Assembly: GCF_002127325.2 (NCBI RefSeq)
Contig: NC_035446.2
Span: 161,623,947-161,687,946 of the forward strand
DNA from: Helianthus annuus
Taxonomy: Eukaryota > Streptophyta > Magnoliopsida > Asterales > Asteraceae
Length of the DNA: 64,000 nucleotides
Reading direction: 5' to 3'
Part shown: positions 1,779-63,348 of the stretch, piece by piece
Layout of the letters: each line of letters begins with the position of its first letter
Position numbering within the stretch: position 1 is the stretch's first letter
Program-made: the position numbers and the translations under genes
Notes under the pieces: generated by a model
Told to the model about the DNA's origin: nothing
What the model saw: only the letters and a program-made list of their open reading frames with translations
Database searches by the model: none

Positions 1779-1791
1779 ATTGCCCCCAAAA
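1779..1791 (-). other. E1 polypurine tract
   Basis: In element sense TTTTGGGGGCAAT abuts the 3' LTR. The same tract is found beside the 3' LTRs of E2, E4, E5 and E6. It would prime plus-strand DNA synthesis. Confidence 0.85.
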
Positions 1792-1864
1792 TATAAGGAG
1801 TGATATTGTAAATAAATGAGTTATATTTTGCTTGATCTTATCTGTAACGACCTAATCGGATAAT

Positions 1865-1942: not shown

Positions 1943-2084
1943 GAGATAGAGATAGGATCAATTCGCATTTAAAATCAAAGAAACTCCCTTTATAATCTCG
2001 TCTGAAGATCAATCACGTATCTCTCTTCTTCCTTCTTCCCTCTCTTACTCTGTTTTTCTGCTTCTTTGTTTTTCTTCTGCAAAT

Positions 2085-3686
2085 ATGTTGCTCTGGAATT
2101 CTCCTCATAAGGATCCTGAGAAGAACAGTCCCTTGAAAGGTCAAGGGATCATCAAAGACTCTCCCACAGAGAGGTGCTGTTTCACTGATCCTCAGGTTGA
2201 TAGAATCCGTCACTGTTTTCCGGCGAACACCATCTTCAAGTCCTTCACTCCCACTGCTTTGAGTGACTTTATCTCTGATACTTGGGTGGCCTTTCCTGTT
2301 ACCCCGTTCTTGATAGGGTATTCATATCCTTTCCCACAGTTCACTCAATCCTTCTTCTCTCTCACCGGCATCTGCTATATCCAGGCTATGCCCATGATCT
2401 GGAGGGTATTGTATACCCTTGAGAGGATCATTGAACAAGAAGGGATTGACCTTAGTATGGCGGAGCTGGCTGAGATGTACGATCTTACCACTTTGGGACC
2501 CCATCGTTATCTATTTAAGCGAAAAGCTGGAGAGGATCATCCTGTCTTCAAGGTCACCAAGAACGACACGAATTGGAAGCGACGGTTCTTCTTTGTTAGG
2601 AGGGATACCATCCCTGATGGGAAGGATCTGCCCAAAGAGTGGGCTACTCATGGTAGGATAGAGGATCCTGGAAGGATCACCATAAGATTTGTTCCTTAGG
2701 ATGAGGATCACTAACATTTTCTTTTGTTTTTTGTTTATTGTGAAGCTATTTCCATCTCTCGTCTGAAGTTGACACCTGCTGCAAAAGAGAGACTTTTAGC
2801 CTTCAAGAAGCTTGATCCGGAGACAAGGACTTTCCAGGTTGCTACTCAAGATTCCCAAGAAGTATCCTCTGCCTCTGTCACGATGTCAAGTAAGTATCCT
2901 GATTAAAAAGTAGTTTCATGTAGGATTTTTTAAATTAGTTAGAATACTTATCTGATTTTGGTTGTGTAGGTGCTGAAAAATCTGCTAAATCTGCCTCCAA
3001 GTTTGGCATTGATGATCTTGCTAATGTCAAATCTGCGAGGAAGAAGACCCCTGCTGCCAGTCCAACCGCTTCAGCCCCTAAAGCACCTATTAGGGGTAAA
3101 GGAAAGAAGAGGAAGGCCTCTGAGGATCTTCAAGGATTTCCCCTGCTCCGCCAACAGTTTCTTGATTACGTTAACGAAGTAAGGATCACTGCTCCTGCTT
3201 GTATATCCTGCTTGTTTGAGGATCATCTGGTCCTGAACCTACCCTTTTCCCTTTTGGCAGAAACTCGCTGAAATAGAAATATATATTGGCCACGTTGAGG
3301 ATCAAGACCGCCAAATTGCCGACCTCCAACAGATGGGTGTGCTAAAGGATCTCAAGATTGCTGATCTTGAGAAGGAGCTCCGGGCCACCAAGGATAAAGC
3401 TGCCAGGATGCTGATCAATTTTGATTATGAGAAGCATGACATTACCCAGGATGCCAAGGTCTCTGCTGCGATAACCATGTATAAGATCCCGCTGCAGATG
3501 GCTGCGGAGGCTCAGGATCCTTCCTTCGACAAAGGCACATGGGACGTGGAAGGCTGGAAGGCGAGGCTGGCAGAGTTGGAGGATGATGAGGAGGCTGAGG
3601 AGATCCCAATGCTTGAGGGCGGTGATGTTGGCAAGGATCAGGGGGAAGCAAGTGGAGCTGGTGGTGATGGTGCAGCGAAGGTTTGA
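2085..3686 (+). CDS. Antisense accessory gene of Tat element, copy A (four exons)
   Basis: Exons 2085-2652, 2746-2889, 2970-3178 and 3261-3686. Every intron is GT-AG and phases agree (1, 1, 0), giving 448 residues. Exon 1 encodes a globular domain, which I recall as close to the Pfam family 'putative gypsy type transposon' (PF04195), with NDTNWKRRFFFVRR near its end. Exon 3 has a basic GKGKKRK stretch, a possible nuclear signal. Exon 4 begins with a long heptad-rich segment (ADLQQMGVLKDLKIADLEKE), likely a coiled coil, and ends acidic and glycine-rich. The acceptor of intron 1 is AAG rather than CAG. Extra antisense ORFs are known in Tat elements such as maize Grande; function is unknown. The gene is open although gag and pol of this element are dead. 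Confidence 0.78.
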
Positions 3687-3960
3687 GCTGCAGGATTGGG
3701 CAATGATGGAAATTTCTAGACATAGCCGGAGCCCAATTTTTTAAAATTTGGTAGTGGTTTTTTATGGTTGTGATGTTTTGAAACAATTTATGGTCTGTAA
3801 CTCAAACAATAGTTTTTAGGGTTAAGGATCCTGGATCCTTTGGACAATAGGTAGGATCGCAAATGGTGGAGGGATCCTCTGTTTGGGGGATGAAGCCTTT
3901 GTGATCCTGCCGCTCTTACTTTCCTGCACCTGCTATGACCGCATAAACAATGGACACCCT

Positions 3961-4014
3961 TTGCCAACCCATGTGGACGGGCCACGTTTTGCTGGTAGAA
4001 ACGTGGGTTGGCAA
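3961..4014. other. Conserved 54-nt hairpin, E1
   Basis: Perfect 11-bp terminal arms TTGCCAACCCA and TGGGTTGGCAA, with an inner ACGTTT/AAACGT pair around a 9-nt loop. The same structure is at 17809-17862, 35949-36002 and 63622-63675, always downstream of the antisense stop codon. It could be a 3'-end or RNA-stability element for either strand. Confidence 0.8.
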
Positions 4015-4446
4015 TTTTGACAACTTTTGAAAGGGTTTAAAATCCTTTGTTAATAAAATAACTCTAATCTTTCTGGCTTATCTCGTGTTGTTATCCTTTG
4101 CTTATCCTTTTATTTTCCAATTGTTAAGCAAATCATGTTCAATCATTTTAGGATATGATCCTGGATCAAATATCCTGTAATCGAAATATTTTCAAAAATA
4201 GTTTATGATCGAGGATCATAGGTTTAGTTGTCAAAGTGTAAGGGTTATTCAAAATAACAAGTATAATCAAAATAGTCAAGGATCATACCTGAGAATCCAA
4301 GTTAGGATCCCAATCTTTAATCAAGATAACCATAAGTGAAATTTTAACGGATAATAAGGATTAAGGATCCTTATTTGTTTAACTTCGAAAACCTGAAAAA
4401 TGGAACATAACTTGGGACTAAGCCAATGTAAAAGATAAATTAATAG

Positions 4447-4749
4447 CTGGGGACATGCCCAAAGGATAACTGGGGACAAGCCCAAAGGATCACTGGGGAC
4501 AAGCCCAAAGGATAACTGGGGACAAGCCCAAGGATCGTATGTAGACTGGAGTATGGCCCTTACTGGCGACTATCCAAACTTGGTACGTCTACCATTATAC
4601 GTAGGATCCTAGATATAGCCAGTACGATGAGGTTGTCAGCCCCTAAAGTGGGTACTGGTCCCAAAGACGTGAACTATACCAGGATCATCATGCGCTACAG
4701 GCGAAAACTGGGGACAAGCCCAAGGATAACTGGGGTTGAACCCAAGGAT
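4447..4749. repeat. GGGGACAAGCCC minisatellite, E1
   Basis: Units of about 22-23 bp, CTGGGGACAAGCCCAAAGGA plus a short tail, four in 4447-4535 and two in 4708-4749, separated by unique sequence. GGGG and CCC within each unit could form small stems. The same repeats are in E2 and E4 with different unit numbers. Confidence 0.85.
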
Positions 4750-4843
4750 CTGAGATGCTTCTGAAGACTATCGATAATATGCTGAGGATACCTGGACTAT
4801 TAGAACTCAAAGTCTCGTGAGAGAAGGATGAAGGATACGTGAT

Positions 4844-7947
<3,104 letters not shown>

Positions 7948-10538
7948 CTATTGTTCCCTTGGCTTCGAGGTTGGCTTCATGGATGAGGTATAACAATCCT
8001 TAGCCTCCTGCTGATCACTGTCGAATTTGATTATCCCCCATGGGCTAGGGAGTTTCACACATTGATGGTAGGTGGATGGGACTGCTTTCATATCATGTAT
8101 CCAGGGCCTGCCAAGGATAACATTGCAACAAGATAAACAGTCAATAACACAAAATTTTTGATAATTATGTAATCCTTCCACGTAGATTGGGAGTTTGATG
8201 TCCCCCAGAGTTTTCTTCGTTTCTCCACTGAATCCCACAAGCACGGAGGATCTTGGTGTGATGTCTGATTCTGGGATACCCATTTTCTTTAGAACATCAA
8301 GCTGGATAATGTTTACTGAGCTTCCTCCGTCGATAAGGATCCTGCGGACAAAATGGTTAGAAATAAAGAGAGTAATAACTAAGCTATCATGATGAGGATC
8401 CTGGATGTTAATGCGATCATCCTCATCAAACGTTATCGTTTTTCCTTCCGAGACACTTGATGTTCGAATAGGTCTTTCTCCATTATCCATTTTTGCTTCC
8501 TTTGCATGCCTTTTGGCTGCCGAGAAGGATGTACCACAAATATCTGATCCTCCGGAAATAAAGTTGATCACTTGTGCATTCGCCGGAGGGGCTGGAGCCT
8601 TTTCAGGGATCCTTTCAGGATCCTGAGTCCTTTGCTTTTTTCTTCCCAACAATTCTTTTAGATACCCCTTGCTTAACAGATATCCAATTTCTTTTCTTAA
8701 TGCTATGCATTCTTCAGTTAGATGCCCGAAATCCTCGTGGTATGCACACCACTTTGACTTGTCTTTAGTCCCGGATGGTTTGTCATTCTTTCTGGGCCAT
8801 CTGGCTTTTTCTCCTAGATTCTGCATTGCAAGGATTAGTTCATGATTGTCAACAGAAAAACAATATTCAGAAATCGGAGGATAATCCTCATCATCCTCTT
8901 CCTGGTCAACAGCATGCACGTTCTGGTTGTCATTTCTGTGGTAGGATTTGAACTTATTGTTCTTGAAAGAGGATCCTTGTTTTTCCTGTTTTGAGGATCC
9001 TACTTGCCTCTCCTGGATCCTTTTGTCATCCTCTAGCCGGATGAACCTGAGTGCCCGAGTTCTTACTTCATCTAGGTTCCTGCACGGTGTCATAACAAGA
9101 TCATCATAGAACAATGAATCCTTAAGCAGTCCCATTTTGAAGGCCTCAACAGTCGTGGCCATATCCAAGTTGGGAATGTCCAAGGATTCTTTACTGAATT
9201 TAGTTATATAATCCCTTAATGATTCATTATGACTTTGAGTTACCCTATATAAATCACTAGTTAATCTTTCAAATTTTCTACTACAAGAGAATTGATTATT
9301 GAACAAATTAACTAAATTAGCAAATGAAGTGATAGAGTAAGGGGGAAGACTTAGCAGCCATTTAAGAGCTGATCCAGTAAGGGTGGATCCAAATCCTTTA
9401 CATAGGCATGCTTCCTTTAATTTTCTGGGATTGGATTGATCTCCATCCTCTCCCTGTATTGTGCTATGTGCTCCTCAGGATCCGTTGTACCATCATACAG
9501 CTTCATAGTAGGGATATGGAACCTTTTGGGTACCTCTGCATCACAAATTGGTGGTGCAAAACGAGATACCTTATGGCTTCCATCTGCAATCTCCGGGATA
9601 GGCTTGACTAGCCCTGGAACACTTGAGATCATATCCTTCAGCTTCTGTAACTCCCTGGCCATAGCATGATTGATACCTGTATCCTGCACGAATCCATGGT
9701 TAGTGGTAAGATAATTATTTAAGGTGTTACCTCCCATCGGGTTCAAGTTAGGAACATTGGGTGTGAATCCATATTGCTGGGATTCTGGGATAATGGATGG
9801 ACCAGTGGAAGCAATGGTCTGCATTGGAATAAAATCTCCTTGATGGACATCTAGGCTTCCTGTTTGCAAATTCTTCAAGGATCCTGGTATCTGTAGGGAT
9901 TCTTGAATCTGGGATGATCCTGGGACGAAGGAGGATCCTTGAACCTGGGATGATCCTGGAACAAAGGAGGATCCTTGAACCTGGGATGATCCCGGAACGA
10001 AGGAGGATCCTTGAACCCGGGATGATCCTGGGACAAAGGAGGATCCTAAGCTCATGAAGGATCCCAAATGCTGGGCGTAGGATCCCGCCGGTTGGAAATA
10101 TGATCCTGATGCCTGAGTCATTGTTGCTGGGCTGAAATGCACTCCTCTTGATCCACCCATATATTGAATGTCTAGGACCTCTGATGGCTGAGAAGTAATC
10201 ATTGGAGTATCAAAATTCAAAGATTTGGGCATTAGTGGGGAATGATCCTCTGCCGTTTTCTTTTGCCTTTTGAGATCTCCGATTTCTCTGAGGATCCTGT
10301 CATTAGTTTCATCCTGCTGCTGCATACGATCCCTCATCTGCAAAATCAAAGTAAATATATCACTAGTACTGGGAACAGAAGAAGTTAGAGCAGAAGATGA
10401 TGGTTTAGAGGAGATAGAAGTTGGTCTCTTCTCAGCATTTTTCTGAGATCCAGCTGGTGGTGGAGGCAAAGGTGGAATGCCAGTAGATGAATTGACTGCC
10501 GACATCGCTGTGGATGTATTCTTCAATGATGAAGCCAT
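7948..10538 (-). pseudogene. gag-pro: E1 gag-protease, frameshifted
   Basis: Starts at the ATG at 10538 (MASSLKNTSTAMSAVNSS). In order: a serine/glycine-rich N-terminal region with four 12-residue repeats, the retrotransposon gag core (YDGTTDPEEHIAQYRERM onward), a CCHC-like finger variant (WCAYHEDFGHLTEEC), and an aspartic protease with ILIDGGSSVNII as its active-site loop. A single-base deletion near 9420, at MEINPIPEN, shifts the frame between the N-terminal part and the core. The ORF closes at UAG 7948-7950, the readthrough stop. Confidence 0.92.
9904..10047 (-). repeat. In-frame 36-bp repeat in E1 gag
   Basis: Four tandem units coding GSSFVPGSSQVQ with small changes. The repeat is rich in GGATCC. 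Unit numbers differ in E3 (four) and E4 (three), and E2 has a degenerate form, so the array expands and contracts without breaking the frame. Confidence 0.9.
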
Positions 10539-10594
10539 GTAACTCTTTGAAATGATTTCGAACAGAAAGTTTTCTTATGAATGAAGCACCAATT

Positions 10595-10612
10595 GCCCCA
10601 CGGTGGGCGCCA
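10595..10612 (-). other. E1 primer binding site
   Basis: Reverse complement of TGGCGCCCACCGTGGGGC, separated from the 5' LTR by three bases. Confidence 0.88.
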
Positions 10613-10615
10613 AAC

Positions 10616-11333
10616 TCTTTTGGTCAAAAATCACACAAGGATAATGCAACCAAACTCTAAGTAAACGGGGAATGATGCTTGGTTTGTTGAAAAAGTAAAG
10701 GATCACTTTAGTAAGAAATATGCAAGTGACACAAGGATTTATACGAGGAAAAAGCCCTTGATCAATGTATGATCTCCGGCATAAAAAACCTCGGGTGATG
10801 GCAACTACCGATCACCAAACTTCAATATAACAAAAAATGGTTACAACTTCGGATGATAATGAGCTGAGTACAAGGATCACTATAGTATCGAGTGTCTAAG
10901 CGTGTGAGAAATGTGTTGTGTGTCTTCCGAATGGGGAAGAGTGTTATATATACAAGTGTGAGTGGCCTATTTTAGGTAAACAAACTAATAATCAGCTCAT
11001 TTCCCCTTTAGAAATAAAAGTAAATCTAGCCTAAATTATCGCCCTTAAATCATGCCAAGTTTCCATATCCTTCACAACGTTCATCTCTGATTAAGCATAT
11101 GCCAAAGTTGTAAAGACGCGTCCCTTGATTGTGATGCTAAGAGCGGATCCTGCTAGACATTCCTGCAAAATGACATTAAGTTCAATGAAAGCAACTGTTA
11201 GCATGAGGATCCTATGATGGTCCGTGATCCTGATCCTGGAACTCTGCTGAGGATCACTATCTGCCAAAGAAACAAGGATCACTGGTTAGGATCACATGTA
11301 AGGATCATGTATTATAAAAATCCAGCCCCAACA
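10616..11333 (-). repeat. E1 5' LTR
   Basis: 718 bp. Differs from 1061-1778 at three positions I can see: the terminal TG is TC (10616-10617), one T/C change in the middle, and CCCCAACA for CCCTAACA at the outer end. The changed terminal dinucleotide would matter to integrase, so it probably arose after insertion. Confidence 0.95.
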
Positions 11334-11371: not shown

Positions 11372-13634
11372 ATGGCCTCAAGATCAAACATGAGTTCCTC
11401 CACCGTGTCTGCTACTACTGGTCCAGTGCTTCCACCACCTCCTCCAAGAATGCAATCTTCTTCGCAACCTCAGGACATTATCCCTACCCGGACTGTTCAG
11501 GGATCTGCTCCGATTTTGGCTTCTAATGATGAAATTCTAACCTTATTTGGGAGTGTGCAGGAACAAATGAGGCAGCAACAGGAAACAAACCAGATGCTGT
11601 TGAGGGAGATACAACTCCTGAAGTCCGGCTCGAGCAGACCTGCTGAGGATATCGTCACTCCATTACAGCCCAGAGCTTTGAACTTTAGTTCAGCCGTGTA
11701 TACTGAGGATAATAGGGGGAATATTGTGCCCAGCCTTCCTCAGAATCCTACTCCTGACATACCCTCCTCGGTTAGGATGTCAACCGTGAGGAGCTCAGGA
11801 TATGCTTCGGGATATGGGCAGAATCCTCCGACTGGTAACGTATCTAATAATAATAATGCTATTGCCACTAACAGTGTTGGATCTTTGCAGGATACAACTG
11901 TAACGTCAGAATTATCCAGGGAGCTTCAGAAGCTAAAGGATATGATATCCAGTGTACCTGGGGTGGTGCAGCCAATTCCTGAAGTATCCCAGGATAGCCA
12001 CAGGATATCTCGGTTCGTACATCCTATATGTGATGCTGAAATCCCAAAAAGATTTCAGACTTCGAACATGAAGCTTTACGATGGAACTACGGATCCTGAA
12101 GAGCATATTGCCCAGTATAGGGAAAGGATGGAGATCAACCCTATCCCTCCGGATCTCAAGGAAGCTTGCCTGTGCAAGGGTTTCGGTTCTACTCTGACAG
12201 GATCAGCCTTAAAATGGCTGTTAAATGTTCCTCCGCATTCGATTACATCATTTGCCCACTTAGTGAATTTATTTAATAGTCAATTTTCTTGCAGTCGGAG
12301 TTTTGAAAAACTAACCAGTGATCTTTACAGGATAACTCAAGGACCTCAGGAATCCTTGAGGGATTATGTGAACAAATTCAGTCGAGAATCCTTGGATATC
12401 CCACATCTTGATGTTGCAACAGCTGTGCAAGCCTTTAAGATGGGGTTGCAAAAGGACTCTCAATTTTATCAGGATCTTGTAATGAATCCCTGCAGGAATC
12501 TCGACGAGGCTCGTAACAGGGCTCTGAGATATATTCGATTGGAGGATGACAAGAAAATGCAAGAAAGGATGAATGCATCCTCAACATACGAATCGACTAA
12601 CCGGAAATCGGAATCCTCATATAAGCCGTATCGCTCCAAGCCATATGGCAGAAATGATAACAAGAGAGTGAATGCTGTTGAAGACGAGGATCCTGAAGAA
12701 TATCCTGAATTATCTGAATATTGTTTTTCTGTTAATATACCTGAACTAATGTATGCTATGCAGGGTCTGGGAGATAAAGCCAGGTGGCCTCGGAAGAATC
12801 AACAAAAAGCTGATTGGAAGGATAAATCCAAATGGTGTGCCTTCCATGAGGATTTCGGACATGTTACGGAGGATTGCATTGCTTTGAGGAAGGAAATAAG
12901 CTATCTTCTGAGCAAGGGATATCTAAAAGATCTCTTGGGAAGAAAAAAGAATAAAGGATAGGATACTGAAAAGGATCCTGAACGAGCGGCCTCACCTCCC
13001 CCGGATGCCAAGATAATCAACTTTATTTCGGGAGGATCAGACATTTGTGGGACTTCGTATTCGGCGGCGAAGAGACATGCAAAAGAAGCTAAGGCTGAGA
13101 GGGGAGACAAACCTGTCAGGATGACTACCCTCACAACTGACAAAATGATCACGTTTGACGCTGATGACAGGGATACTGTCCAGGATCCTCACCATGATGC
13201 TCTGGTAATAACGTTATGTGGCTAACCATTTTGTACGCAGGATACTGGTTGATAATGGCAGTTCCGTCAACATAATCCAACTGGAGACTCTGAAGAAAAT
13301 GAATGTGTCTCTGATGGATATCACTTCGAAGTCTACTGTGCTCGTTGGTTTCAGTGGAGAAGCTAGGAACACAGTGGGAGAGATAAAGCTGCCCGTGTAT
13401 GTTGAAGGAGTCAACAAGATGCAACGTTTTTGTGTGATGGATTCTCTATCCTGCTATAACATTATCCTGGGAAGACCCTGGATTCACGATATGAAGGCCG
13501 TTCCATCAACATATCACCAATGCATCAAGATCCCTACCCCTTGGGGAGTTGTCAAAATCGATAGTGATCAACAAGAAGCGAAAGAATGTTACTCATCCTC
13601 AATGAAATCCTCGGCCAAACCGAGTCCAGCATAG
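11372..13634 (+). pseudogene. gag-pro: E0 gag-protease, two lesions
   Basis: Starts at ATG 11372 (MASRSNMSSSTVSA). The gag core (YDGTTDPEEHIAQYRERM, GSALKWLL) and finger (WCAFHEDFGHVTEDC) are clear. The protease loop is ILVDNGSSVNII at about 13250. A TAG at 12959-12961 ends the first open stretch shortly after the finger, and a frameshift near 13216 precedes the protease. The final TAG at 13632-13634 lies in the readthrough context. Only about half of the residues near the N-terminus resemble E1-E4, and the 12-residue repeats are missing, so this is a separate subfamily. Confidence 0.9.
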
Positions 13635-13640
13635 CAATTA
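13629..13640 (+). promoter_or_regulatory. Readthrough stop TAG-CAA-TTA, E0
   Basis: GCA TAG CAA TTA AAG in frame between protease and pol. The codon before the stop differs from E1, E2 and E4 (GCA for CAA), but the downstream hexamer is identical despite strong divergence around it. Confidence 0.75.
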
Positions 13641-14859
13641 AAGGTGCGGGCCCAGGATATCGGGGAGAATTCGGAGCAGGATGTGAAAAAAGTTATCCTG
13701 GACCAGGATAATCCTGATATCTCGGTGCTCGTAGGAACCAATATCCCTCAGGATATTGAAGAACAATTAACTAACTTTCTGAAATGCAGGATGTCAACAT
13801 TCGCATGGAAGCATGAGGATATGACAGGTATATCAAAAGACATTATTACTCACAAGCTTGGAATTGACAGGTCATATAAGCCTATACAACAAAAGAGAAG
13901 GAAATTCGCCCCTGAACGGAATGCAATTATCCAAGAGGAAGTTGAAAGATTATTGAAGTCTAGGATGATTAGAGAAGTCAAATTCCCTAGATGGCTAGCA
14001 AATGTGGTAGTGGTTCAAAAGAAGAATGGGAAGTGGAGAGTCTGCGTAGACTACACAGACCTGAACAAAGCTTGTCCAAAAGACCCATTCCCTCTGCCTC
14101 ATATAGACTCGATGGTGGATGCCACTGCTGGCCATGAAATGTTAACCTTCATGGATGCATCCTCAGGATTCCAGCAGATTCAAATGGAACCTTCAGACCA
14201 GGAGGATACTGCTTTCATGACACCAACAAGTATTTACTGTTATACTGCTATGCCTTTTGGTTTAAAAAATGCAGGTGCAACGTACCAGAGATTGGTGAAC
14301 ATGATGTTCAAAGACAAACTGGGGGACACCATGGAAGTATATATCGATGATATGGTGGTGAAATCTAAAAAGGTTGAGGATCACCTCCGGGATATCAAGG
14401 GAGCATTTGATATCCTGGATCAATACAACATGAAGCTGAATCCTGCTAAATGCCATTTCGGAGTCGGGGCAGGAAAGTTTCTTGGATACATGGTGACAAA
14501 AAGAGGGATAGAGGCAAGCCCGGAGCAGATTAAAGCTATCCTGAATATAAAGTCACCCTCAAATATGAAGGATGTTCAACGGTTAACAGGACGAGTGGCA
14601 GCCTTAAATAGATTTATTTCAAGATCCTCGGAAAAGTGTAAAGAATTCTATGATATCCTGAAAAAGAATAAAAAATTTGAATGGGGTGAGATGCATGAAG
14701 CAGCCCTGCAGGATTTGAAGCAGTATCTCTCAACCGCACCTCTATTGATGAAGCCTGAGGATGGTGAACCATTATCCCTGTATCTTGCAGTATCAGGGAA
14801 TGCAGTAAGTGCAGTACTAGTAAAAGACCACGAAGGTCAGCAGTATCCTGTTTATTATG
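13635..14859 (+). pseudogene. pol: E0 pol, first part (RT and start of RNase H)
   Basis: Open in one frame from the readthrough stop to the E2 insertion. RT motifs are present: FTDLNKACPKDPFPLPHID-like substrate loop, FMDASSGFQQIQ, YIDDMVVKSKK. The first RNase H begins LSLYLAVSGNAVSAVLVKD; its usual first catalytic aspartate is replaced by valine, as in the E2 copy. The frame stops at E2 and resumes at 25608. The part seen has no internal stop, so it was coding-competent until E2 landed. Confidence 0.92.
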
Positions 14860-15572
14860 TGTTTTGGTCAAAAATCACACAAGGATAATGTAACCAAACT
14901 TTATGTAAACGGGGTATGATGCTTGGTTAATTATAAAAGTAAAGGATCACTTCTATGAGGAATATGCAAAGACACAATGATTTATACGAGGAAAAAGCCC
15001 TTGATCAATGTATGATCTCCGGCATAAAAAACCTCGGGTGATGGCAACTACCGATCACCAACTTCAATATAAGAAAAATATAGTTACAACTTCGGATGAT
15101 AATGAGCTGAGTACAAGGATCACTATAGTTTTGAGTGTCTAAGCGTGTGAGAGTTGTGTTGTGTGTTCTTCCGAATGAGGAAGAGTGTTATATATACAAG
15201 TGTAGGGTGACCTATTTTAGGTAAAAAGACTAATAATCAGCTCATTACCCCTTTAGAAATAAAAGACAATCTAGCCTAAATTGCCGCCCTTAAATCAAGC
15301 TAAGTTTCCATATCCTTTGCGACGTCTATCTTTGATTAAGCTCGTGCTATAATTGTGAAGACGCGTCCCTTGATTATGATGCTAAGAGCGTATCCTGCCA
15401 GATGTTCCTGCAAAATAATGTTGTATTACACGAAGGTAACTATTAGCATGAGGATCCTTTCAATGGTCCATGATCCTGATCCTGAAGTCCTGCTGAGGAT
15501 CACTGTCTGCCAAAGAAACAAGGATCACTGGTACGTATAAGGATCACGTATGATAAAAATCCAGCCCTAACA
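14860..15572 (-). repeat. E2 3' LTR
   Basis: TGTTTTGGTC to AGCCCTAACA on the plus strand, followed directly by the reversed polypurine tract ATTGCCCCCAAAA at 15573-15585. Confidence 0.95.
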
Positions 15573-15658
15573 ATTGCCCCCAAAATATAAGGAGTTTATT
15601 GTAAATAAATGAGTTATATTTTGCTCTGATCTTATCTGCAACGAATGACTCGGATAAC

Positions 15659-15737
15659 TAGCCGTTAATATCGAACTAGCCGTTGCAACCCTTACGTCAT
15701 AGATGTGACAATCCCTGCAAATCATGATTATAAATAG
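15659..15737 (+). promoter_or_regulatory. Promoter module of antisense gene, copy B
   Basis: TAGCCGTT at 15659-15666 and 15677-15684, TTACGTCA at 15692-15699, TATAAATAG at 15729-15737; 167 bp from TATA to ATG. A pyrimidine-rich leader (15815-15890) follows. Confidence 0.7.
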
Positions 15738-15895
15738 GAGATAGGGTTAGGATCACTCTGCATTTAAATTCGAGATATCTTCCCTTTATAATCGCTACCG
15801 AAGATTGACCAGGTATTCTCTTCTTCTCTCTTTCCTTTCTTCCTTCTCTTGCTCTGTTTTTTCTGCTTTTACTCTGTTTCTGTTCCACCACGAGT

Positions 15896-17531
15896 ATGTT
15901 GCTTCGAAATTCTCCACATAAGGATTCCAAGAAGAGCAGTCCCCTAAAAAGCCAAGGGATCATCAAGGACTCTCCTACGGAGAGATGTTGCTTTACTGAT
16001 GCTCATGTAGACAGGATTCGTCATTGCTTTCCGGCGAATGCTGTTTTCAAATCCTTCACACCTGCTGCTTTGAGCGACTTTGTTTCAGACGTCTGGGTGG
16101 CCTTTCCTGCTACTCCGTTCACCATAGGGTATTCGTATCCTTTTCCAGCCTTCACCCAATCCTTCTTTTCTTTAACCGGCATATCTTATATCCAAGCTAT
16201 GCCGATGATCTGGAGGGTCCTGTATACCTTCGAGAGGATCATCGAGCAGAAGGGGATTGATTTGGGGATGGCAGAGTTGGCCGCACTTTATGATCTTACC
16301 ACGTTTGGATCCTGTCGATATCTGCTAAAACGAAAAGCTGGGGAGGATCACCCTGTCTTCAAGGTTACTAAGAATGACACAAACTGGAAGCGTCGCTTTT
16401 TCTTTGTTAGAAGGGATACCATCCCAGATGGGAAGGATCTGCCCAAGGAATGGGCCACTCATGGTAGGGTAGAGGATCCTGGAAGGATCACTATCAGACT
16501 TGTCTCATACGATGAGGATCACTAACGTCTTTTTTATTTTTTGTGCAGCTATATCCATTGCTTATCTTAAGTTAACCCCTGCTGCAAGAGAAAGAGTCTT
16601 AGCTTTTAAAAAGCTCAATCCTGAGGTCAGAAGTTTCCAAGTCATCGTCCAAGATTCACAAGAAGTATCCTCCGCATCTGCCACTATGTCAAGTAAGTAT
16701 CCTTATAAAAAAGTAGGTTATATGTAAGATTGTTTAATTAGTAAGGGGACTTATCTTGTTTTGATTGTGTAGGTGTTGGGAAGTCTGCCAAATCTGCCAA
16801 GTCTGCCTCCAAGTTTGGGATAGATGAACTTGCCAATGTCAAGTCTTCACGAAAGAAGGCTTCTGTTGCCAGTCCCTCTGCTTCGGCTCCTAAAGCACCT
16901 GTTAGAGGTAAGGGGAAGAAGAGGAAGACTTCTGAGGATCTCCAAGGATTTCCCCTAATCCGCCAACAGTTCCTTGACTATGTTAATGAGGTAAGGATCA
17001 TTGCCCCTGTTGGTTATCCTTCTCTAATGTCCTGCTTGTATATCCTGCCTGTATATCCTGCTTTTTTGAGGATCACATGATCCTGAACTTACCTTTTTTT
17101 CTCTTTTGCAGAAACTTGCCGAGATTGAGACCTACCTTGGCCATGTCGAGGATCAGGAGAGCCAAATCGCCGACCTCCAACAAATGGGCGTGTTAAAGGA
17201 TCTCAAGATAGCCGATCTTGAGAAGGAACTCCGGGCTACAAAGGATGAGGCTGCTCAAAGGCTAATTGATATGGATGGCGAGAAGCAGGAGATCATCCAG
17301 GATGCCAAGGTCTCTGCCGCAACTGCTATGTACAAGATTCAACTACAAATGGCTGCGGAGGCTCAGGATCCTGCCTTTGACAAGAGCTCATGGGACGTGG
17401 AGGGTTGGAAGGCAAGATTGGCAGAGCTGGAGGATGAGGACGAAGCAGAGGAGATCCCCATGCTAGAAGGTGGTGATGCTGAGAAGGATCAGGGTGGAGA
17501 AGCTGGTGGTGATGGAGCAGCAAAGGTGTGA
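15896..17531 (+). CDS. Antisense accessory gene of Tat element, copy B (four exons)
   Basis: Exons 15896-16463, 16549-16692, 16773-16990 and 17112-17531 give 1350 nt and 449 residues. Introns of 85, 80 and 121 nt are GT-AG; intron 1 ends in a pyrimidine run plus GCAG with a CTAAC branch-like site about 25 nt upstream, and intron 2 has the strong donor GTAAGT. Exon 1 (residues 1-189) is the globular PF04195-like domain; exon 3 carries GKGKKRK; exon 4 is a heptad-rich coil followed by an acidic tail. No membrane segment or secretion signal is seen, so a nuclear or cytosolic protein is likely. Failure to splice intron 1 would give a 209-residue product ending YDEDH. The gene runs opposite to gag-pol of E2. 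Confidence 0.82.
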
Positions 17532-17808
17532 GCTGCTGGATTGGGCGATGATGGATATTTCGAGACTAGGCCGGAGCCCAATTTTTTAGGATTGGTAGTG
17601 GTTTTTTGTGGTTGTTGATGGTTTGGGAACAATTTATGGTCTGTAATCTTTGAGCAATAGTTTTTAGGGTAAAGGATCCTGGATCCTTCGAACAATAGGT
17701 AGGATTACAAAAGGTGGAGGGATCCTCTGTTTGGGGGATGAAGCCTTTGTGATCCTGCCGCTTTTACTTTCCTGTACCTGCTAAGACCACATAGACAATG
17801 GACACCCT

Positions 17809-17862
17809 TTGCCAACCCATGTGGACGGGCCACGTTTTGCTGGTAGAAACGTGGGTTGGCAA
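17809..17862. other. Conserved 54-nt hairpin, E2
   Basis: Same 11-bp arms and inner ACGTTT/AAACGT pair as in E1; the arms are perfect here. Confidence 0.8.
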
Positions 17863-18311
17863 TTTTGACAACTTTTGAAGGGTTAATCCTTTCGTTAATA
17901 AATAAAATCTTAAACTTTTGTCGCTTATCTTGTTTATTATCCTTTTTATTTTCAATTGTTTTGACACATGTTTGTTTAAGTAAGAAAAGTTGAGCAAATT
18001 ATGTTTAGGAAATTTAGGATATGATCCTGGATCAAATATCCTATAATCAAAAATTTTCAAGGTAGTTTATTTTAAGGATCATAGGTTCAGTTGTCAAGGT
18101 CTAAAGGTTATTCAAATGAATAATGAAACTAAAAAATAGTTAAGGATCATACCTGAGGATCCAAGTTAGGATCCTAACCTTTAATCGGGATAACCATAAG
18201 TAAGACTTTAATGGATAATAAGGATTAAGGATCCTTAATTGTTTAATCTTCGAAAACCTGAAAAATGGAACATATCTTGGGACTAAGCCATTGTAAAAGA
18301 TAAATTAGTAG

Positions 18312-18728
18312 CTGGGGACATGCCCGAAGGATAACTGAGGATGATCCCGGAGGATCACTGGGGACAAGCCCAAAGGATAACTGGGGACAAGCCCAAAGGA
18401 TAACTGGGGACAAGCCCAAAGGATAACTGGGGACAAGCCCAAAGGATCGTATGTAAACTGGAGTATGGCCCTTACTGGCGACTATCCAAACTTAGTGACA
18501 TGAAAATGTCGAAACCTTAGCTAACGTGAAAACGTTAGAAACCTTAGGAACGGATGTATGGTACGTCTACCATTATACGGAGGATCCTGGGTATAGCCAG
18601 TACGATGAGGTTGTCAGCCCCGGAAGTGGGTACTGGTCCCAAAGACGTGAACTATATCAGGATCATCGTGCGCTGCTGGTGGAAACTGGGGATAATCCCA
18701 AGGATAACTGGGGACAAGCCCAAGGATC
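18312..18728. repeat. GGGGACAAGCCC minisatellite, E2
   Basis: About six units at 18312-18448, the first two degenerate, and two at 18686-18728. Unit number is higher than in E1, which shows array growth. Confidence 0.85.
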
Positions 18729-18956
18729 TGCGTTGCTTTTGAAGATTCTTGACGATATGCCGTAGATACCTGAACTATCATAACTCAAATGGTTCGTGAG
18801 AAGAGGATGAAGGATACAGGATCCTTATCCTTTGGTAAAAAGTAAGGAAATGTAATAGTTTTAGGATAAGCACATTACCAGAGTAAGGATCACTGATATC
18901 ATCGGGATCCTTCAAGGATACTTCAATATAAGGATCACATGCTTGAAGGATCATGT

Positions 18957-22262
<3,306 letters not shown>

Positions 22263-24813
22263 CTATTGCTCCCTTGGCTTCGAGGTTGGCTTCATGGATG
22301 AGGTATAACAATCCTTAGCCTCCTGCTGATCACTGTCGATCTTGATTATTCCCCATGGGCTAGGGAGCTTCACACATTGATGGTAGGTGGATGGGACTGC
22401 TTTCATATCATGTATCCAAGGCCTGCCAAGGATAACATTGCAACAAGACAAACAGTCAATAACGCAAAATTTCTGGTAATTATGTAATCCTTCCACGTAG
22501 ATTGGGAGTTTGATGTCCCCCAGAGTTTTCTTCGTTTCTCCACTGAATCCTACAAGCACGGAGGATCTTGGTGTGATGTCTGATTCTGGGATTCCCATCT
22601 TCTTCAGAACATCAAGCTGGATAATGTTCACTGAGCTTCCTCCATCGATAAGGATCATGCGGACAAAATGGTTAGAGATAAAGAGAGTGATAACTAAACT
22701 ATCATGATGAGGATCCTGAATGTTAATGCGATCATCCTCATCAAACGTTATCATCTTCCCTTCTGAGACACTTGATGTTCTAATAGGCCTTTCTCCATTA
22801 TCCATTTTTGACTCCTTTGCATGTCTTTTGGCCGCCGAGAAGGATGTACCACAGATGTCTGATCCTCCGGAAATAAAGTTGATCACTTGTGCATTTGCCG
22901 GAGGTGCTGGAGCCTTTTCAGGGATCCTTTCAGGATCCTGAGTCCTTTGCTTTTTTCTTCCCAACAATTCTTTCAGGTGCCCCTTGCTTAATAGATATCC
23001 AATCTCTTTTCTTAAAGCTATGCATTCTTCAGTCAGATGCCCGAAATCCTCATGGTATGCACACCATTTTGACTTGTCTTTAGTCCCGGATGGTTTATCA
23101 TTCTTCCTGGGCCACCTAGCTTTTTCACCTAGATTCTGCATTGCAAGGATCAGTTCATGATTATCAACGGAAAAACAATATTCTGAGATTGGAGGATAAT
23201 CTTCATCATCCTCTTCTTGGTCAACAGCATGCACATTCTGGTTCTCATTTCTATGGTAGGATTTGAATTTGTTGTTTTTGAGAGGATCCTTGCTTCTCCT
23301 GTTTTGAGGATCCTACTTGTCTCTCCTGGATCCTCTTGTCATCCTCTAGCCGGATGAACCTGAGTGCTCGAGTTCTTACTTCATCTAGATTCCTGCATGG
23401 TGTCATAACAAGATCATCATAGAATAATGAATCCTTAAGCAGTCCCATTTTGAAGGCTTCAACAGCCGTAGCCATATCCAAGTTGGGAATGTCCAAGGAT
23501 TCTTTACTAAATTTAGTTATATAATCCCTTAATGATTCATTATGATTTTGAGTTATCCTGTACAAATCACTAGTTAATCTTTCAAATTTTCTACTACAAG
23601 AGAATTGGTTATTGAATAAATTAACTAAATTAGCAAATGAAGTAATAGAGTAGGGGGGAAGACTTAGCAGCCACTTAAGAGCTGATCCAGTAAGAGTGGA
23701 TCCAAATCCTTTACATAGGCATGCTTCTTTCAGGTTTTCTGGGATAGGATTGATCTCCATCCTCTCCCTGTATTGTGCTATGTGCTCTTCTGGATCCGTT
23801 GTACCATCATACAGCTTCATAGTAGGGATATGGAACCTTTTGGGTACCTCTGCATCACAAATTGGTGGTGCAAAGCGAGATACCTTATGGCTTGCATCTG
23901 CAATCTCTGGGATAGGCTTGACTACCCCTGGAACGCTTGAGATCATATCTTTTAGTTTCTGCAATTCCCTGGCCATAGCATGATTGACACCTGTATCCTG
24001 CATGAATCCATGGTTAGTGGTAGGATAATTATTTAAAGTGTTACCTCCCATTGGGTTCAAGTTAGGGAATCCATATTGCTGGGATTCTGGAACAACGGAG
24101 GGACCAGTGGAAGCAATGGTCTGCATTGGAATGAAGTCCCCTTGATGGACATCTAGACTTCCTGTTTGCAAACTTTTTAGGGATCCTGGCACCTGGAAGG
24201 ATCCTGGTATCTGGAAGGATCCTGGTATCTGGGATGATCCTGAAACGAAGGAGGATCCTTGACCCTGGGATGATCCTGGAACAAAGTAGGATCCTTGAAA
24301 CTGCTGTGCACCCGGATAGGCTCCCGAATTCATGAAGGATCCCATATGCTGGGGATAGGATCCTGCCGGCTGAAAGTGTGAGCCAGATGCCTGAGTCATT
24401 GCTGTCGATCTGAGGTGCAATCCTCTTGATTCTCCCATAATTTGCACGTCTGGAATTCCCGATGGCTGAGAAGTAATCATTGGAGTATCAAAGCTCAAGG
24501 ATTTGGGCATCAGTGGGGAATGATCCTCTGCCGTTTTCTTTTGTCTCTTGAGATCTCCAATTTCCCTGAGGATCCTTTCATTAGTTTCATCCTGCCGCTG
24601 CATACGATCCTTCATCTGCAAAATCAAAGTAAATACATCACTAGTACTGGGAATATAAGAATTCATAGCAGAAGGAGATGGAGTTTTAGAATTAGTAGGA
24701 GTTTGTCTCTTCTCAGCATTCTTCTGGGATCCCGCCGGTGGTGGAGGCAGAATGTTCTGGGACGAGGTGACTGTAGACATTGCCGTGGACATGTTTTTCA
24801 ATGATGAAGCCAT
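22263..24813 (-). pseudogene. gag-pro: E2 gag-protease, one frameshift
   Basis: ATG at 24813 (MASSLKNMSTAMSTVTSS). It holds the Ser/Gly-rich N-terminus with degenerate repeats (GSFQIPGSFQVPG), the gag core over roughly residues 310-500, the finger WCAYHEDFGHLTEEC and the protease loop DGGSSVNII. A one-base deletion near 23280, after KQEKQGSS, closes the first frame at 23251 and separates gag core from finger and protease. Apart from this the gene is open, so a functional copy existed very recently, or the shift could be bypassed at low rate. Confidence 0.93.
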
Positions 24814-24869
24814 GTAATTCTATGAAATGATTTCGAACAAAAGGTTTTCTTATGAATGAAGCACCAATT

Positions 24870-24887
24870 GCCCCACGGTGGGCGCCA
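24870..24887 (-). other. E2 primer binding site
   Basis: Reverse complement of TGGCGCCCACCGTGGGGC, three bases from the 5' LTR. Confidence 0.88.
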
Positions 24888-24890
24888 AAC

Positions 24891-25602
24891 TGTTTTGGTC
24901 AAAAATCACACAAGGATAATGTAACCAAACTTTATGTAAACGGGGTATGATGCTTGGTTAATTATAAAAGTAAAGGATCACTTCTATGAGGAATATGCAA
25001 AGACACAATGATTTATACGAGGAAAAAGCCCTTGATCAATGTATGATCTCCGGCATAAAAAACCTCGGGTGATGGCAACTACCGATCACCAACTTCAATA
25101 TAAGAAAAATATAGTTACAACTTCGGATGATAATGAGCTGAGTACAAGGATCACTATAGTTTTGAGTGTCTAAGCGTGTGAGAGTTGTGTTGTGTGTTCT
25201 TCCGAATGAGGAAGAGTGTTATATATACAAGTGTAGGTGACCTATTTTAGGTAAAAAGACTAATAATCAGCTCATTACCCCTTTAGAAATAAAAGACAAT
25301 CTAGCCTAAATTGCCGCCCTTAAATCAAGCTAAGTTTCCATATCCTTTGCAACGTCTATCTTTGATTAAGCTCGTGCTATAATTGTGAAGACGCGTCCCT
25401 TGATTATGATGCTAAGAGCGTATCCTGCCAGATGTTCCTGCAAAATAATGTTGTATTACACGAAGGTAACTATTAGCATGAGGATCCTTTCAATGGTCCA
25501 TGATCCTGATCCTGAAGTCCTGCTGAGGATCACTGTTTGCCAAAGAAACAAGGATCACTGGTACGTATAAGGATCACGTATGATAAAAATCCAGCCCTAA
25601 CA
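24891..25602 (-). repeat. E2 5' LTR
   Basis: 712 bp with intact TG and CA ends; near-identical to 14860-15572. Confidence 0.96.
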
Positions 25603-36257: not shown

Positions 36258-37851
36258 TCAATCCTTCGCTGCACCATCACCACCAGCTCCGCTTGCCTCC
36301 CCAGCATGATCCTTGCCAGCACCTTCAAGCATCGGTATCTCCTCAGCCTCCTCATCATCCTCCAACTCTGCCAGCCTCGCCTTCCAGCCCTCCACGTCCC
36401 ATGTGCTTTTGTCGAAGGCAGGATCCTGAGCCTCCGCAGCCATCTGCAACTGGATCTTATACATGGCTATCGCAGCAGAGACCTTGGCATCCTGGGTGAT
36501 ATCATGCTTCTCATAATCAAAGTTGATCAGCATTTTGGTAGCATCATCCTTGGTAGCCCGGAGCTCCTTCTCAAGATCAGCAATCTTGAGATCCTTCAGC
36601 ACACCCATTTGTTGGAGGTCAGCGATTTGGCGGTCTTGATCCTCAACGTGGCCAACATAAGTCTCTATTTCAGCAAATTTCTGCAAGGAAGATAAGACAC
36701 AAATATCAGAAACAATCCTTAAAACTATCAGGATACGCAAACAGGGGCAGTGATCCTTACCTCATTGAAGTAATCTAGAAACTGTTGGCGGAGCAGGGGC
36801 AGGCCTTGGAGATCCTCAGCATCAGAGGCCTTTCTCTTCTTGCCTCCTTTCCCTCTAGCAGGTGCTTTCGGGACGGAAGTACTTGGGCTAGCAGGATTCT
36901 TCTTTCTGGAGGATCTGACGTTGGTTAGATCATCGATGCCAAATTTTGAGGCGGACTTAGAGGATTTTCCAGCACCTACACAACCAAAATAAGATAAGTA
37001 TTCTAATTAAATTTGAAATCCTACATAGAATTACTTTTAAATAAGGATACTTACTTGACATTGTGGCAGAGGCAGAGGATACTTCCTGAGAATCTTGAGT
37101 GGCAACTTGGAAAGTTCTTGCTTCAGGATCAAGCTTCTTGAAGGCCAAAAGTCTCTCTTTTGCAGCAGGAGTCAACCTAAGACGAGAAATGGATATAGCT
37201 GCACAATAAAACAAGAAAATATCAGTGATCCTCATCCTTAGGAACAGGTTTTATGGTGATCCTTCCAGGATCCTCTATCCTACCATGAGTAGCCCACTCT
37301 TTGGGCAGATCCTTCCCATCAGGGATGGTATCTCTCCTAACAAAAAAGAACCGTCGCTTCCAGTTCGTGTCGTTCTTGGTAACTTTGAAGACAGGGTGAT
37401 CCTCCCCAGCTTTTCGCTTAAACAAATAGCGATGGGATCCGAAAGTGGTAAGATCATACATCTCAGCCAGCTCCGCCATACCAATGTCAATCCCCTCTTG
37501 TTCAATGATCCTCTCAAGGGTGTATAAGACCCTCCAGATCATGGGCATAGCCTGGATATAGCAGATGCCGGTAAGAGAGAAAAAGGATTGAGTGAACTGT
37601 GGGAAAGGATACGAATATCCTATCAAGATAGGAGTGACCGGGAAAGCTACCCAAGTATCAGAAATAAAATCACTCAAAGCAGTGGGGGTAAAAGACTTGA
37701 AGAGAGTGTTCGCCGGAAAGCATTGACGGATTCTGTCGATCTGAGGATCGGTAAAACAGCACCTCTCGGTGGGAGAATCTTTGATGATCCCTTGACCCTT
37801 CAAGGGGCTGTTCTTCTTAGGATCCTTATGCGGGGAGTTCCGGAGCAACAT
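36258..37851 (-). CDS. Antisense accessory gene of Tat element, copy C (four exons)
   Basis: Minus-strand exons 37851-37284, 37198-37055, 36975-36761 and 36680-36258; 1350 nt, 449 residues, no internal stop. Junctions fall at the same codons as in copies A and B, with GT-AG throughout (CATG|GTAGG, GCAG|CTATATCC, TCAA|GTAAGT, GAG|GTAAGG). Exon 1 is the PF04195-like domain with NDTNWKRRFFFVRR; exon 4 is the coil plus acidic tail. Retention of intron 1 would give a 209-residue protein ending PKDEDH. Orientation is again opposite to gag-pol of its element, so the arrangement is fixed and not a product of one rearrangement. The element around it has at least six lesions in pol. Confidence 0.82.
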
Positions 37852-50034: not shown

Positions 50035-50921
50035 GAGATAGAGATAGGATCAATTTGCATTTAAATTCAAGAGAAACTCCCTTTATAATCTCGTCCGAAG
50101 ATTGATCAGGTATTCTCCTCTTTTCTTCCTTCTCTTACTCTGTTTCTCTGTCTCTTTCCATTCTTCTGCAAATATGTTGCTCCGGAATTCCCCTCATAAG
50201 GATCCTGAGAAGAACAGTCTCTTGAAGGGTCAAGGGATCATCAAAGATTCTCCTGCCGAGAGGTGCTGCTTTACCGATCCTCAGGTTGACAAGATCCGTC
50301 ATTGTTTTCCGGCGAACACCATCTTCAAGTCTTTTACTTCTACCGCTTTGAATGATTTTATCTCTGATTCTTGGGTAGCCTTTCCTGTTACTCCGTTCTT
50401 GATAGGATATTCATATCCTTTCCCACAGTTCACTCAATCCTTCTTCTCTCTCACCGGCATCTGCTATATCCAGGCCATGCCAATGATCTGGAGGGTTTTA
50501 TATACCCTTGAAAGGATCATTGAACAAGAGGGGATTGACCTTGGTATGGCGAAGCTGGCTGAGATGTATGATCTTACCACTTTCGGACCCCATCGTTATC
50601 TATTTAAGCGAAAAGCTGGAGAGGATCATCCTGTCTTCAAGGTCACCAAGAACGACACCAACTGGAAGCGTCGGTTCTTTTTTTGTTAGGAGAGATACCA
50701 TCCCTGACGGGAAGGATCTGCCCAAAGAGTGGGCTACTCATGGTAGGATAGAGGATCCTGGAAGGATCACCATAAGATTTGTTCCTTAGGGTGAGGATCA
50801 CTAATATTTCCTTTGTTTATTGTGCAGCTATCTCCATCTCTCGTCTGAAGTTGACACCTGCTGCAAAAGAGAGACTTTTAGCCGTCAAGAAGCTTGATTC
50901 GGAGACAAGAACTTTCCAGGT

Positions 50922-59619: not shown

Positions 59620-60472
59620 CAGGTTGCTACTCAAGATTCCCAAGAAGTATCCTCTGCCTCTGTCACGATGTCAAGTAAGTATCCTTATTTAGAAAGTAAT
59701 TCTATGTAGGATTTTCAAGTTTAATTAGAAAACTTATCTTATTTTGGTTGTGTAGGTGCTGGAAAATCTTCCAAGTCTGCCTCAAAGTTTGGCATTGATG
59801 ATCTTGCTAATGTCAAATCTGCAAGGAAGAAGACTCCTGCTGCCAGCCCAACTGCTTCAGCCCCTAAAGCACCTATTAGGGGTAAAGGAAAGAAGAGAAA
59901 GGCCTCTGAGGATCTACAAGGCCTGCCCCTGCTTCGCCAACAGTTTCTGGACTACTTCAACGAGGTAAGGATCGCTGCCCCTGTTCGTTATCCTGACAAT
60001 TTTGAGGATCACTTGTTTCTGACGTTATGCCTTGTTTTCCTTGCAGAAATTTGCTGAAATAGAAACTTATGTTGGCCACGTCGAGGATCAAGATCGCCAA
60101 ATTGCTGACCTCCAACAGATGGGTGTGCTGAAGGATCTCAAGATTGCTGATCTTGAGAAGGAGCTCCGGGCCACCAAGGATAAAGCTGCCAGGATGCTGA
60201 TCAATTTTGATTATGAGAAGTATGACATTACCCACGATGCCAAGGTCTCTGCTGCGATAACCATGTATAAGATCCAGCTGCAGATGGCTGCGGAGGCTCA
60301 GGATCCTTCCTTCGACAAGAGCACATGGGACGTGGAGGGCTAGAAGGCGAGGCTGGCAGAGTTGGAGGATGATGAGGAGGCTGAGGAGATCCCAATGCTT
60401 GAAGGAGGTGATGCTGGCAAGGATCAGGGAGAAGCAAGTGGAGCTGGTGGTGATGTTGCAGCGAAGGTTTGA

Positions 60473-61721: not shown

Positions 61722-63348
61722 ATGTTGCTCCGAAATTCCCCTCACAAGGATCACAAGAAGAGCAGTCCCCTGAAAAGCCAAGGGATCATTAAAGACTCTC
61801 CTACTGAGAGGTGCTGCTTCACCGATGCTCATGTTGATAGGATCCGTCACTGTTTTCCGGCGGATGCTATCTTCAAGTCATTTACTTCCACCGCTTTAAG
61901 CGATTTTGTTTCCGACACCTGGGTGGCCTTTCCTGCAACTCCGTTTACCATAGGATATTCGTATCCTTTTCCAGCCTTCACCCAATCCTTCTTTTCCCTG
62001 ACCGGCATGTCTTATATCCAAGCCATGCCGATGATCTGGAGGGTTCTGTATACCTTCGAGAGGATCATCGAGCAGGAGGGGATTGACTTAGGGATGACAG
62101 AGCTGGCTGAGCTTTATGATCTTACCACGTTTGGTTCCTATCGATATTTGCTGAAACGGAAAGCTGGGGAGGATCACCCTGTTTTTAAGGTCACCAAAAA
62201 TGACACTAACTGGAAGCGAAGATTCTTCTTTGTTAGGAGGGATACCATTCCTAACGGGAAGGATCTGCCCAAGGAGTGGGCTACTCATGGTAGGATAGAG
62301 GATCCTGGAAGGATCATCATCAGACTTGTTTCTTATGATGAAGATCACTAATGTTTCCTTTGTCTTTTGTGTTTTTTCAGCTATATCCGTTGCTCATCTC
62401 AAGTTAACCCCTGCTGCAAGAGAAAGAGTTTTAGCTTTCAAAAAGCTTGATCCTGAGACCAGAAGTTTTCAAGTCACCATCCAGGATTCACAAGAAGTAT
62501 CCTCCGCATCTTCCACAATGTCAAGTAAGTATCCTTATCAAAAAGTAAGTTCCATGCAAGACTGTTAAATTAGTTTGGAAACTTATCTTGTTTTGATTGT
62601 GCAGGCGCTGGGAAATCTGCTAAGTCTGCCAAGTCTGCCTCCAAATTCGGGATTGATGATCTTGCCAATGTCAAGTCTTCAAGAAAGAAGACTTTTGTTG
62701 CCAGTCCCTCTGCTTCAGCCCCTAAAGCACCTGTTAGGGGTAAGGGAAAGAAGAGAAAGACTTCTGAGGATCTCCAAGGATTTCCCCTGCTCCGCCAGCA
62801 GTTTCTTGATTATGTTAATGAAGTAAGGATCATTGCTCATGTTGGCTATCCTTCTTGAGTATCCTGTCTGTGTATTCTGTTTCTTTGAGGATCACCTGGT
62901 CCTGATCTTACCTTTTTCCTTTTTGCAGAAACTTGCTGAAGTAGAGACCTACCTTGGCCATGTCGAGGATCAGGAAGGCCAAATCGCCGACCTTCAACAA
63001 ATGGGCGTGTTGAAGGATCTGAAGATAGCTGATCTTGAGAAGGAGCTCCGGGCTACTAAGGATGAGGCTGCTCAAATGCTGATCAACATGGATGGCGAAA
63101 AGCAGGAGATCACCCAGGATGCCAAGGTCTCTGCCGCGATTGCTATGTATAAGATACAACTGCAGATGGCTGCGGAGGCTCAGGATCCTGCCTTCGACAA
63201 GAGCTCATGGGATGTGGAGGGTTGGAAGGCAAGGTTGGCGGAATTGGAGGACGATGATGAAGCTGAGGATATCCCTATGCTTGAAGGTGGTGATGCTGGC
63301 AAGGATCAAGGTGGGGAAGCTAGTGGTGATGGAGCAGCAAAGGTTTGA
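61722..63348 (+). CDS. Antisense accessory gene of Tat element, copy E (four exons)
   Basis: Exons 61722-62289, 62381-62524, 62605-62822 and 62929-63348; 1350 nt, 449 residues, open. An in-frame ATG two codons earlier (61716, MSMLLRNS) could also be used; I chose 61722 because it matches the other copies. Introns are GT-AG and the first ends in TTTTTTCAG. Domain layout is as in copy B, to which it is closest (LKSQGIIKDSPTERCCF, YSYPFPAFTQSFFSL). Retained intron 1 would end YDEDH, as in copy B. Exon 4 has the coil (ADLEKELRATKDEAAQMLI) and an acidic, glycine-rich tail. Confidence 0.82.

Follow-up and report, generated by a model that had tools for sequence, protein, structure and literature searches.

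Among the described systems closest to the locus studied here are the TRP28 genes of Retand retrotransposons, and in the available text of one survey TRP28 (PF04195) occurs in all of 63 Retand clusters except Helianthus annuus 4 and 5 (Vicient 2025, PMC11963269). For gene23 of Grande in maize, the accessible part of a review describes an antisense promoter of its own and a nuclear product (PMC7264820). Spliced antisense genes exist in HTLV retroviruses (PMC10186651), VANC proteins demethylate their own element family, whose short words they bind (PMC5735166, PMC10398659), and Ogre elements retain a sense intron that is spliced from only part of their transcripts (PMC6317226); these papers too are cited from the portions available. 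No spliced or intron-bearing antisense gene of a plant Retand element is described in the literature searched, outside which lie the original papers on Grande gene23, Silene Retand and the extra ORFs of Tat elements. That such a gene is a less described form, as had been claimed from the sequence at the outset, is consistent with this for plant Retand, but the spliced antisense genes of HTLV are already known (PMC10186651).

The window, which is the whole 64-kb stretch that was analysed, comes from Helianthus annuus (assembly GCF_002127325.2, contig NC_035446.2, 161,623,947-161,687,946, forward strand) and contains one LTR retrotransposon family in several copies, some of them nested. A TAA microsatellite of ~81 units occupies positions 1-246. 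Element B, with an LTR pair of 99.58% identity, has the characters of a young Retand-type element (Ty3/gypsy, Tat), the Retand label being taken from its size, its layout and the published sunflower clusters. A second RNase H between RNase H and integrase is a trait of Ogre and Retand elements in the part of the source available (PMC6317226), and the order of reverse transcriptase, RNase H, RVT_3 and integrase in pol of element B (RNase H 372-466, RVT_3 517-634, integrase zinc binding 735-790), together with Retrotrans_gag, fits this group. Element B has both this second RNase H and, in the stretch from pol to the 3' LTR, an antisense coding region. The LTR and internal sizes lie within the published Retand range, as far as the survey's available text gives it, and come close to those of the two clusters that have no TRP28: LTR plus internal length is 10,031 nt in element B against 10,030 and 10,032 in Helianthus annuus 4 and 5, the distance from pol to LTR is 3,384 against 3,327 and 3,343, and the LTR alone is 713 against 720 and 719 (PMC11963269). 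Two arrays with three or more repeats are a further trait to set beside those clusters. It would seem from these sizes, rather than from sequences, that element B resembles Helianthus annuus 4 and 5.

The antisense gene occupies 15896-17531 on the plus strand of element B, running opposite to gag-pol in the stretch that separates pol from the 3' LTR, and is predicted to have four exons and 449 codons. Coordinates are collected in Table 1.

Table 1. Features of the 64-kb window, numbered from its first letter.
Feature	Position	Strand	Details
Element A	1061-11333		LTRs 99.72% identical; target duplication GTTTT
Copy A	2085..3686 (end computed from lengths)	+	448 aa, intact; in element A
Element B	14860..25602		TSD 5-nt TTATG
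3' LTR of element B	14860..15572	-	713 nt
TATA-like TTTATAA, copy B	15785..15791	+	111 nt upstream of ATG
Exon 1, copy B	15896..16463	+	568 nt; N-terminal domain
Intron 1, copy B	16464..16548	+	GTAGGG...GTGCAG
Exon 2, copy B	16549..16692	+	144 nt
Intron 2, copy B	16693..16772	+	GTAAGT...GTGTAG
Exon 3, copy B	16773..16990	+	218 nt; basic linker, KKRK NLS-like motif
Intron 3, copy B	16991..17111	+	GTAAGG...TTGCAG
Exon 4 incl. stop, copy B	17112..17531	+	420 nt; coiled coil, acidic tail
23-bp tandem array, 5.9 copies	18312..18447	.	between pol and antisense gene of B
pol of element B	18957..22235	-	Pfam: RT, RNase H, second RNase H (RVT_3), integrase
gag of element B	23251..24813	-	Pfam: Retrotrans_gag
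5' LTR of element B	24891..25602	-	712 nt
Copy C	36258..37851 (end computed from lengths)	-	449 aa, intact
Copy D, first part	50174..50921	+	broken
Copy D, second part	59632..60472 (end computed)	+	downstream of 8.7-kb insertion
Copy E	61722..63348	+	449 aa, intact

The gene is intact in four of the five copies (A, B, C and E), with uninterrupted products of 448, 449, 449 and 449 residues. Exons 1 and 2 of copies A, C and E are 568 and 144 nt long, as in B, and the length differences among the intact copies in exons 3 and 4 are all multiples of 3. All 15 introns, three in each of five copies, have GT-AG borders. Copy D has a one-base insertion in exon 1 (569 nt) and a 7-nt loss in exon 2 (137 nt); its exon 4 contains an in-frame stop, and the gene is interrupted by an insert of ~8.7 kb. 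The original prediction, of five copies sharing one four-exon model, was right as to the intron borders and for four of the copies, but copy D is broken; likewise its exon 1 lengths (568 nt, 569 in D) agree with ours, while the 144 nt that it gave for exon 2 holds for A, B, C and E and not for D. Its intron phases of 1, 1 and 0 and its spliced 449-residue gene antisense to gag-pol are reproduced by the exon model of copy B (CDS of 1350 nt, 449 aa plus stop). The introns are 63-66% AT and the exons 51-52%. TTTATAA is found in all five copies, 92-111 nt upstream of the ATG. In the young element A the pol frame has an internal stop and a non-triplet gap, and the antisense gene is nonetheless intact.

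Whole-CDS dN/dS is 0.07-0.08 in all six pairs of the intact copies (dS 0.48-1.38), similar to that of pol between A and B (0.06); for single exons of intact pairs it is 0.32 at most, and for exon 1 it is 0.04-0.06. The remaining five frames of the same exonic DNA contain 5-42 stops; dN/dS exceeds 1.1 in four of these frames and is 0.13-0.15 in a reverse frame that has 14-16 stops. A chance antisense ORF is ruled out by these values and frame controls, and the copy comparisons show the gene to be under strong purifying selection. The existence of the gene and its four-exon model are, on the sequence, nearly certain.

Relatives were collected by three protein searches (the best 120 of 137 matches, the best 120 of 237, and 75 of 75), the matches sharing words with the query. 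All species-named relatives among the matches listed are from Helianthus (H. annuus, H. debilis, H. anomalus), a statement that leaves aside the nameless rows P0116, P0117, P0129 and P0131 and the species-incomplete P0132. Most of those listed form families of near-identical models on many chromosomes, and annotated sunflower models of 446-452 aa are recurrent among them. In the first search (120 proteins of 137 matches) alignment was gapless over junctions 1, 2 and 3 in 60, 69 and 97 proteins. Among 132 relatives listed, nearly all of them annotated Helianthus models, many partial and with annotation being no proof of splicing, 44 have all three junctions, and junctions 2 and 3 are matched by 116 and 94. 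Junction 1 is canonical in 58 of the 132, has a donor 33 nt further on in 18 and is read into intron 1 in 18 others; intron 3 is kept in 12 and intron 2 in one. Splicing may vary between copies, or these models may be wrong. In two Helianthus gene models, P0125 and P0132, parts of this protein are joined to a replication factor A-like protein and to a sugar-nucleotide dehydratase; these fusions are probably artefacts of annotation.

The first 63 nt of intron 1 in copy B (16464-16526) hold three AGGATC sites and are conserved about as well as exon 1, and reading on unspliced into this intron would add ~20 codons in B, C and E. The conservation of this 5' half is explained in part by the 33-nt donor extension of the relatives; the copy alignment contains no GT at that point in the window copies. 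It had been argued that introns antisense to the genomic RNA escape removal from it, and this reasoning is sound: the introns would persist because the genomic RNA, being the other strand, presents CT-AC borders to the spliceosome. The accompanying claim that a sense intron is lost at the first retrotransposition does not always hold, as Ogre keeps a partly spliced one (PMC6317226, available part).

The predicted protein would begin with an N-terminal domain, continue through a basic, NLS-like linker and a coiled coil for dimerisation, and end in an acidic tail. The KKRK columns of exon 3 are invariant in an alignment of 25 relatives. A coil and an acidic tail were both foreseen in the original prediction and both are found: AlphaFold2 places a helix at 294-392 in the relative P0001 (pLDDT 69-84 over residues 331-410), and residues 405-449 hold 16 D/E against 4 K/R. 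Two AlphaFold2 models, with mean pLDDT of 41.6 and 42.1, were too weak to give the fold of the N-terminal domain, so that DNA binding by the protein is suggested by analogy. The lone strong match of a sequence search against the PDB was traced to the fused dehydratase model P0132 in the alignment and discounted, and an Rfam scan of element B gave no match. A profile comparison with PF04195, put forward in the original prediction, was negative for copies B and C (Pfam, E up to 1). The 12 Pfam families listed for 10 relatives did not include PF04195, and neither did the 25 listed, out of 33, for 40 relatives (E up to 10). Of six published TRP28 positions set in register, B has four (equalled by 2.3-2.5% of shuffles) and C three (50-63%), although the published numbers may be alignment columns.

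The gene shares with the TRP28 genes of Retand its place between pol and the 3' LTR, its antisense orientation and its Retand-type element, and differs in having four exons and no PF04195 match; the word 'intron' is absent from the available text of that paper (PMC11963269). To Grande gene23 it is similar as an antisense gene before the 3' LTR with its own promoter and a nuclear product, the last two being predicted for the sunflower gene (PMC7264820, available part). HBZ and the APH proteins of HTLV-1 to -4 are, in the part of the source at hand, similarly antisense, spliced, nuclear and located toward the 3' LTR, but are retroviral with a promoter within the 3' LTR, and HBZ is a bZIP protein; the likeness drawn here is one of gene layout (PMC10186651).

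Two features went unmentioned in the original prediction, a word that recurs across the whole element and a mosaic history of the gene. The word has the consensus AGGATC(C/A)(T/C), and the window's other elements have hardly any of it. AGGATC, picked after inspection of the data, has a density of 10.6 sites per kb in the family against 0.33 in the rest of the window, the intervals having been set by hand after a per-kb profile and the rest including 13501-14859, in part a related pol remnant. Element B contains 144 GGATC/GATCC words where its base shuffles have 17, and element A contains 147 where they have 15; the 8.7-kb insertion has 16 against 9, and the region at 38.8-48.5 kb 4 against 15. 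Measured against a trinucleotide expectation in element B the excess is ~4-fold for AGGATC (114 against 28) and 2-fold for GGATC (144 against 72). Synonymous shuffles give 15.3 AGGATC sites in pol where 31 are found (z 4.9), 17.1 in gag (33 found) and 6.4 in the antisense gene (13 found, z 3.4 for its exons); in the middle ORF of the pol region the word is not clearly above such shuffles (10 against 7.2, z 1.1). The sites are dispersed over gag, pol, antisense exons, introns and LTR, with word-bearing arrays only in gag, where units bearing GGATCC are repeated in tandem. Among the longer forms of the word the palindrome AGGATCCT is the most frequent, followed by AGGATCAC and AGGATCAT, and both orientations occur in element B (82 GGATC and 62 GATCC on the plus strand). 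Because of this strand balance and the palindromic form, the word would seem to be recognised as double-stranded DNA. Two other elements, at 38800-48500 and 50922-59631, have over-represented words of their own (TACGTA; CGACGG and GGGCGT), weaker than AGGATC, with z of 8.8 and 10.3 against 16.

The word is also conserved beyond its surroundings. Counted over ordered copy pairs, which are hence not independent, exact conservation of AGGATC against other 6-mers is 104/116 against 1108/4289 in the introns, 110/132 against 6344/11321 from the LTR to the ATG and 52/63 against 962/2179 in the 3' flank. At codons identical in amino acid it is 110/115 against 4504/10109 in the antisense gene, 40/41 against 3924/5142 in pol and 14/15 against 1154/1670 in the middle ORF. 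The excess stays the same when the control words are limited to those lacking CpG (0.455, n=8652), or to those that have three G/C and lack both CpG and CHG (0.458, n=2384). At site level, 16 positions carry the word in any of the four intact CDS, nine of them in all four. AGGATC ranks fourth of 17 frequent non-coding words and fourth of 13 in the CDS, the higher words overlapping it. Judged by these comparisons, the conservation within the family is selection-like. No description of a GGATC word in sunflower or in retrotransposons was found in the literature searched on that point.

The arrangement recalls VANC of the Arabidopsis VANDAL elements, where a transposon accessory gene is similarly accompanied by a short, family-dense word, and AGGATC is dense in its family and conserved as DNA. 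VANDALs are DNA transposons, whereas the sunflower family is a retrotransposon; VANC sites are tandem repeats in non-coding DNA, whereas AGGATC is dispersed in coding and non-coding DNA alike; and VANC binding is demonstrated, whereas binding of AGGATC by the sunflower protein is proposed by analogy (PMC5735166, PMC10398659, in the parts available).

The gene region does not share the history of its element. When A is compared with B, dS comes to 0.23 in pol, 0.31 in the middle ORF and 0.33 in gag, but to 1.26 in the antisense gene, and sequence identity, 91-97% along most of pol, drops to 76-83% in the gene. The LTR of copy E is nearer to A (96%, against 90% to B), while its gene is nearer to B (exon distances of 0.10-0.13, against 0.14-0.22 to A). 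The region at 15660-17660 in B and 1866-3812 in A has diverged much more than pol has, and for E the tree of the LTR disagrees with that of the gene: recombination has swapped the antisense gene region between lineages of the element.

Taken together, the locus is very probably an accessory gene, spliced, under selection and with a nuclear product, that belongs to a Helianthus LTR retrotransposon of Retand type. Transcription would be driven by a TATA-type promoter of the gene's own, lying just inward of the 3' LTR, and splicing of the antisense transcript would give a nuclear protein of 449 aa. This protein may act on the DNA of its own element, probably through the palindrome-like AGGATC words, such that the element stays expressible; bound to the word it might, on the model of VANC, counteract silencing. 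Binding at AGGATC is put forward tentatively. The fuller proposal, of a dimeric nuclear protein that recognises the dispersed word and thereby labels its family or shields it from silencing, as VANC does for a DNA transposon, with introns kept through antisense orientation, is similarly speculative. A tie between word and protein is absent from all results of the analysis, and a reading no less tentative is that the gene is real while AGGATC provides sites for a host DNA-binding factor and the protein acts otherwise, for instance in nuclear transport or as an HBZ-like regulator of LTR transcription; HTLV antisense proteins, products of spliced genes, act on LTR transcription through protein partners (PMC10186651, available part). 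Against a host factor, the word occurs throughout the element, in gag, pol, introns and LTR, more widely than an LTR promoter would require, and other elements in the window are without it in the same host (0.33 per kb).

It is improbable that the abundance of AGGATC reflects copying or homogenisation, by tandem duplication or gene conversion, in place of selection for binding. The tandem units in gag, the merely 2-fold trinucleotide-based excess of GGATC beside ~4-fold for AGGATC and the weaker over-represented words of the other two elements speak for such a process, but single sites in pol and the antisense exons exceed synonymous shuffles (z 4.9 and 3.4), and sites stay fixed while neighbouring synonymous or intronic positions change. 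Several coding introns would be expected of a nuclear gene, and capture of a host gene in reverse orientation, recent and merely carried along, would account for them; with the species-named relatives listed all from Helianthus, mostly in near-identical families on many chromosomes, and with purifying selection ongoing among element copies, this is very unlikely. Non-coding antisense transcripts of retroelements are known (PMC7264820, available part), yet a dN/dS of 0.07-0.08 and exon indels of intact copies in threes only make it scarcely credible that antisense transcription matters solely as RNA, in control by double-stranded RNA, with an incidental reading frame.

Surveys of such elements have sought uninterrupted frames of 250 codons (PMC6317226) or 600 bp (PMC11963269), according to their available text. 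Since the longest open exon frame of copy B is 209 codons, a gene of this kind would appear in them as short pieces. Our comparisons present it as a real, under-described variant of the known antisense accessory genes. The conserved coding introns count against an origin by capture of a spliced mRNA and favour acquisition at the DNA level or later intron gain. AGGATC offers a concrete target, and a direct question of binding would make the role of antisense genes in plant retrotransposons answerable.
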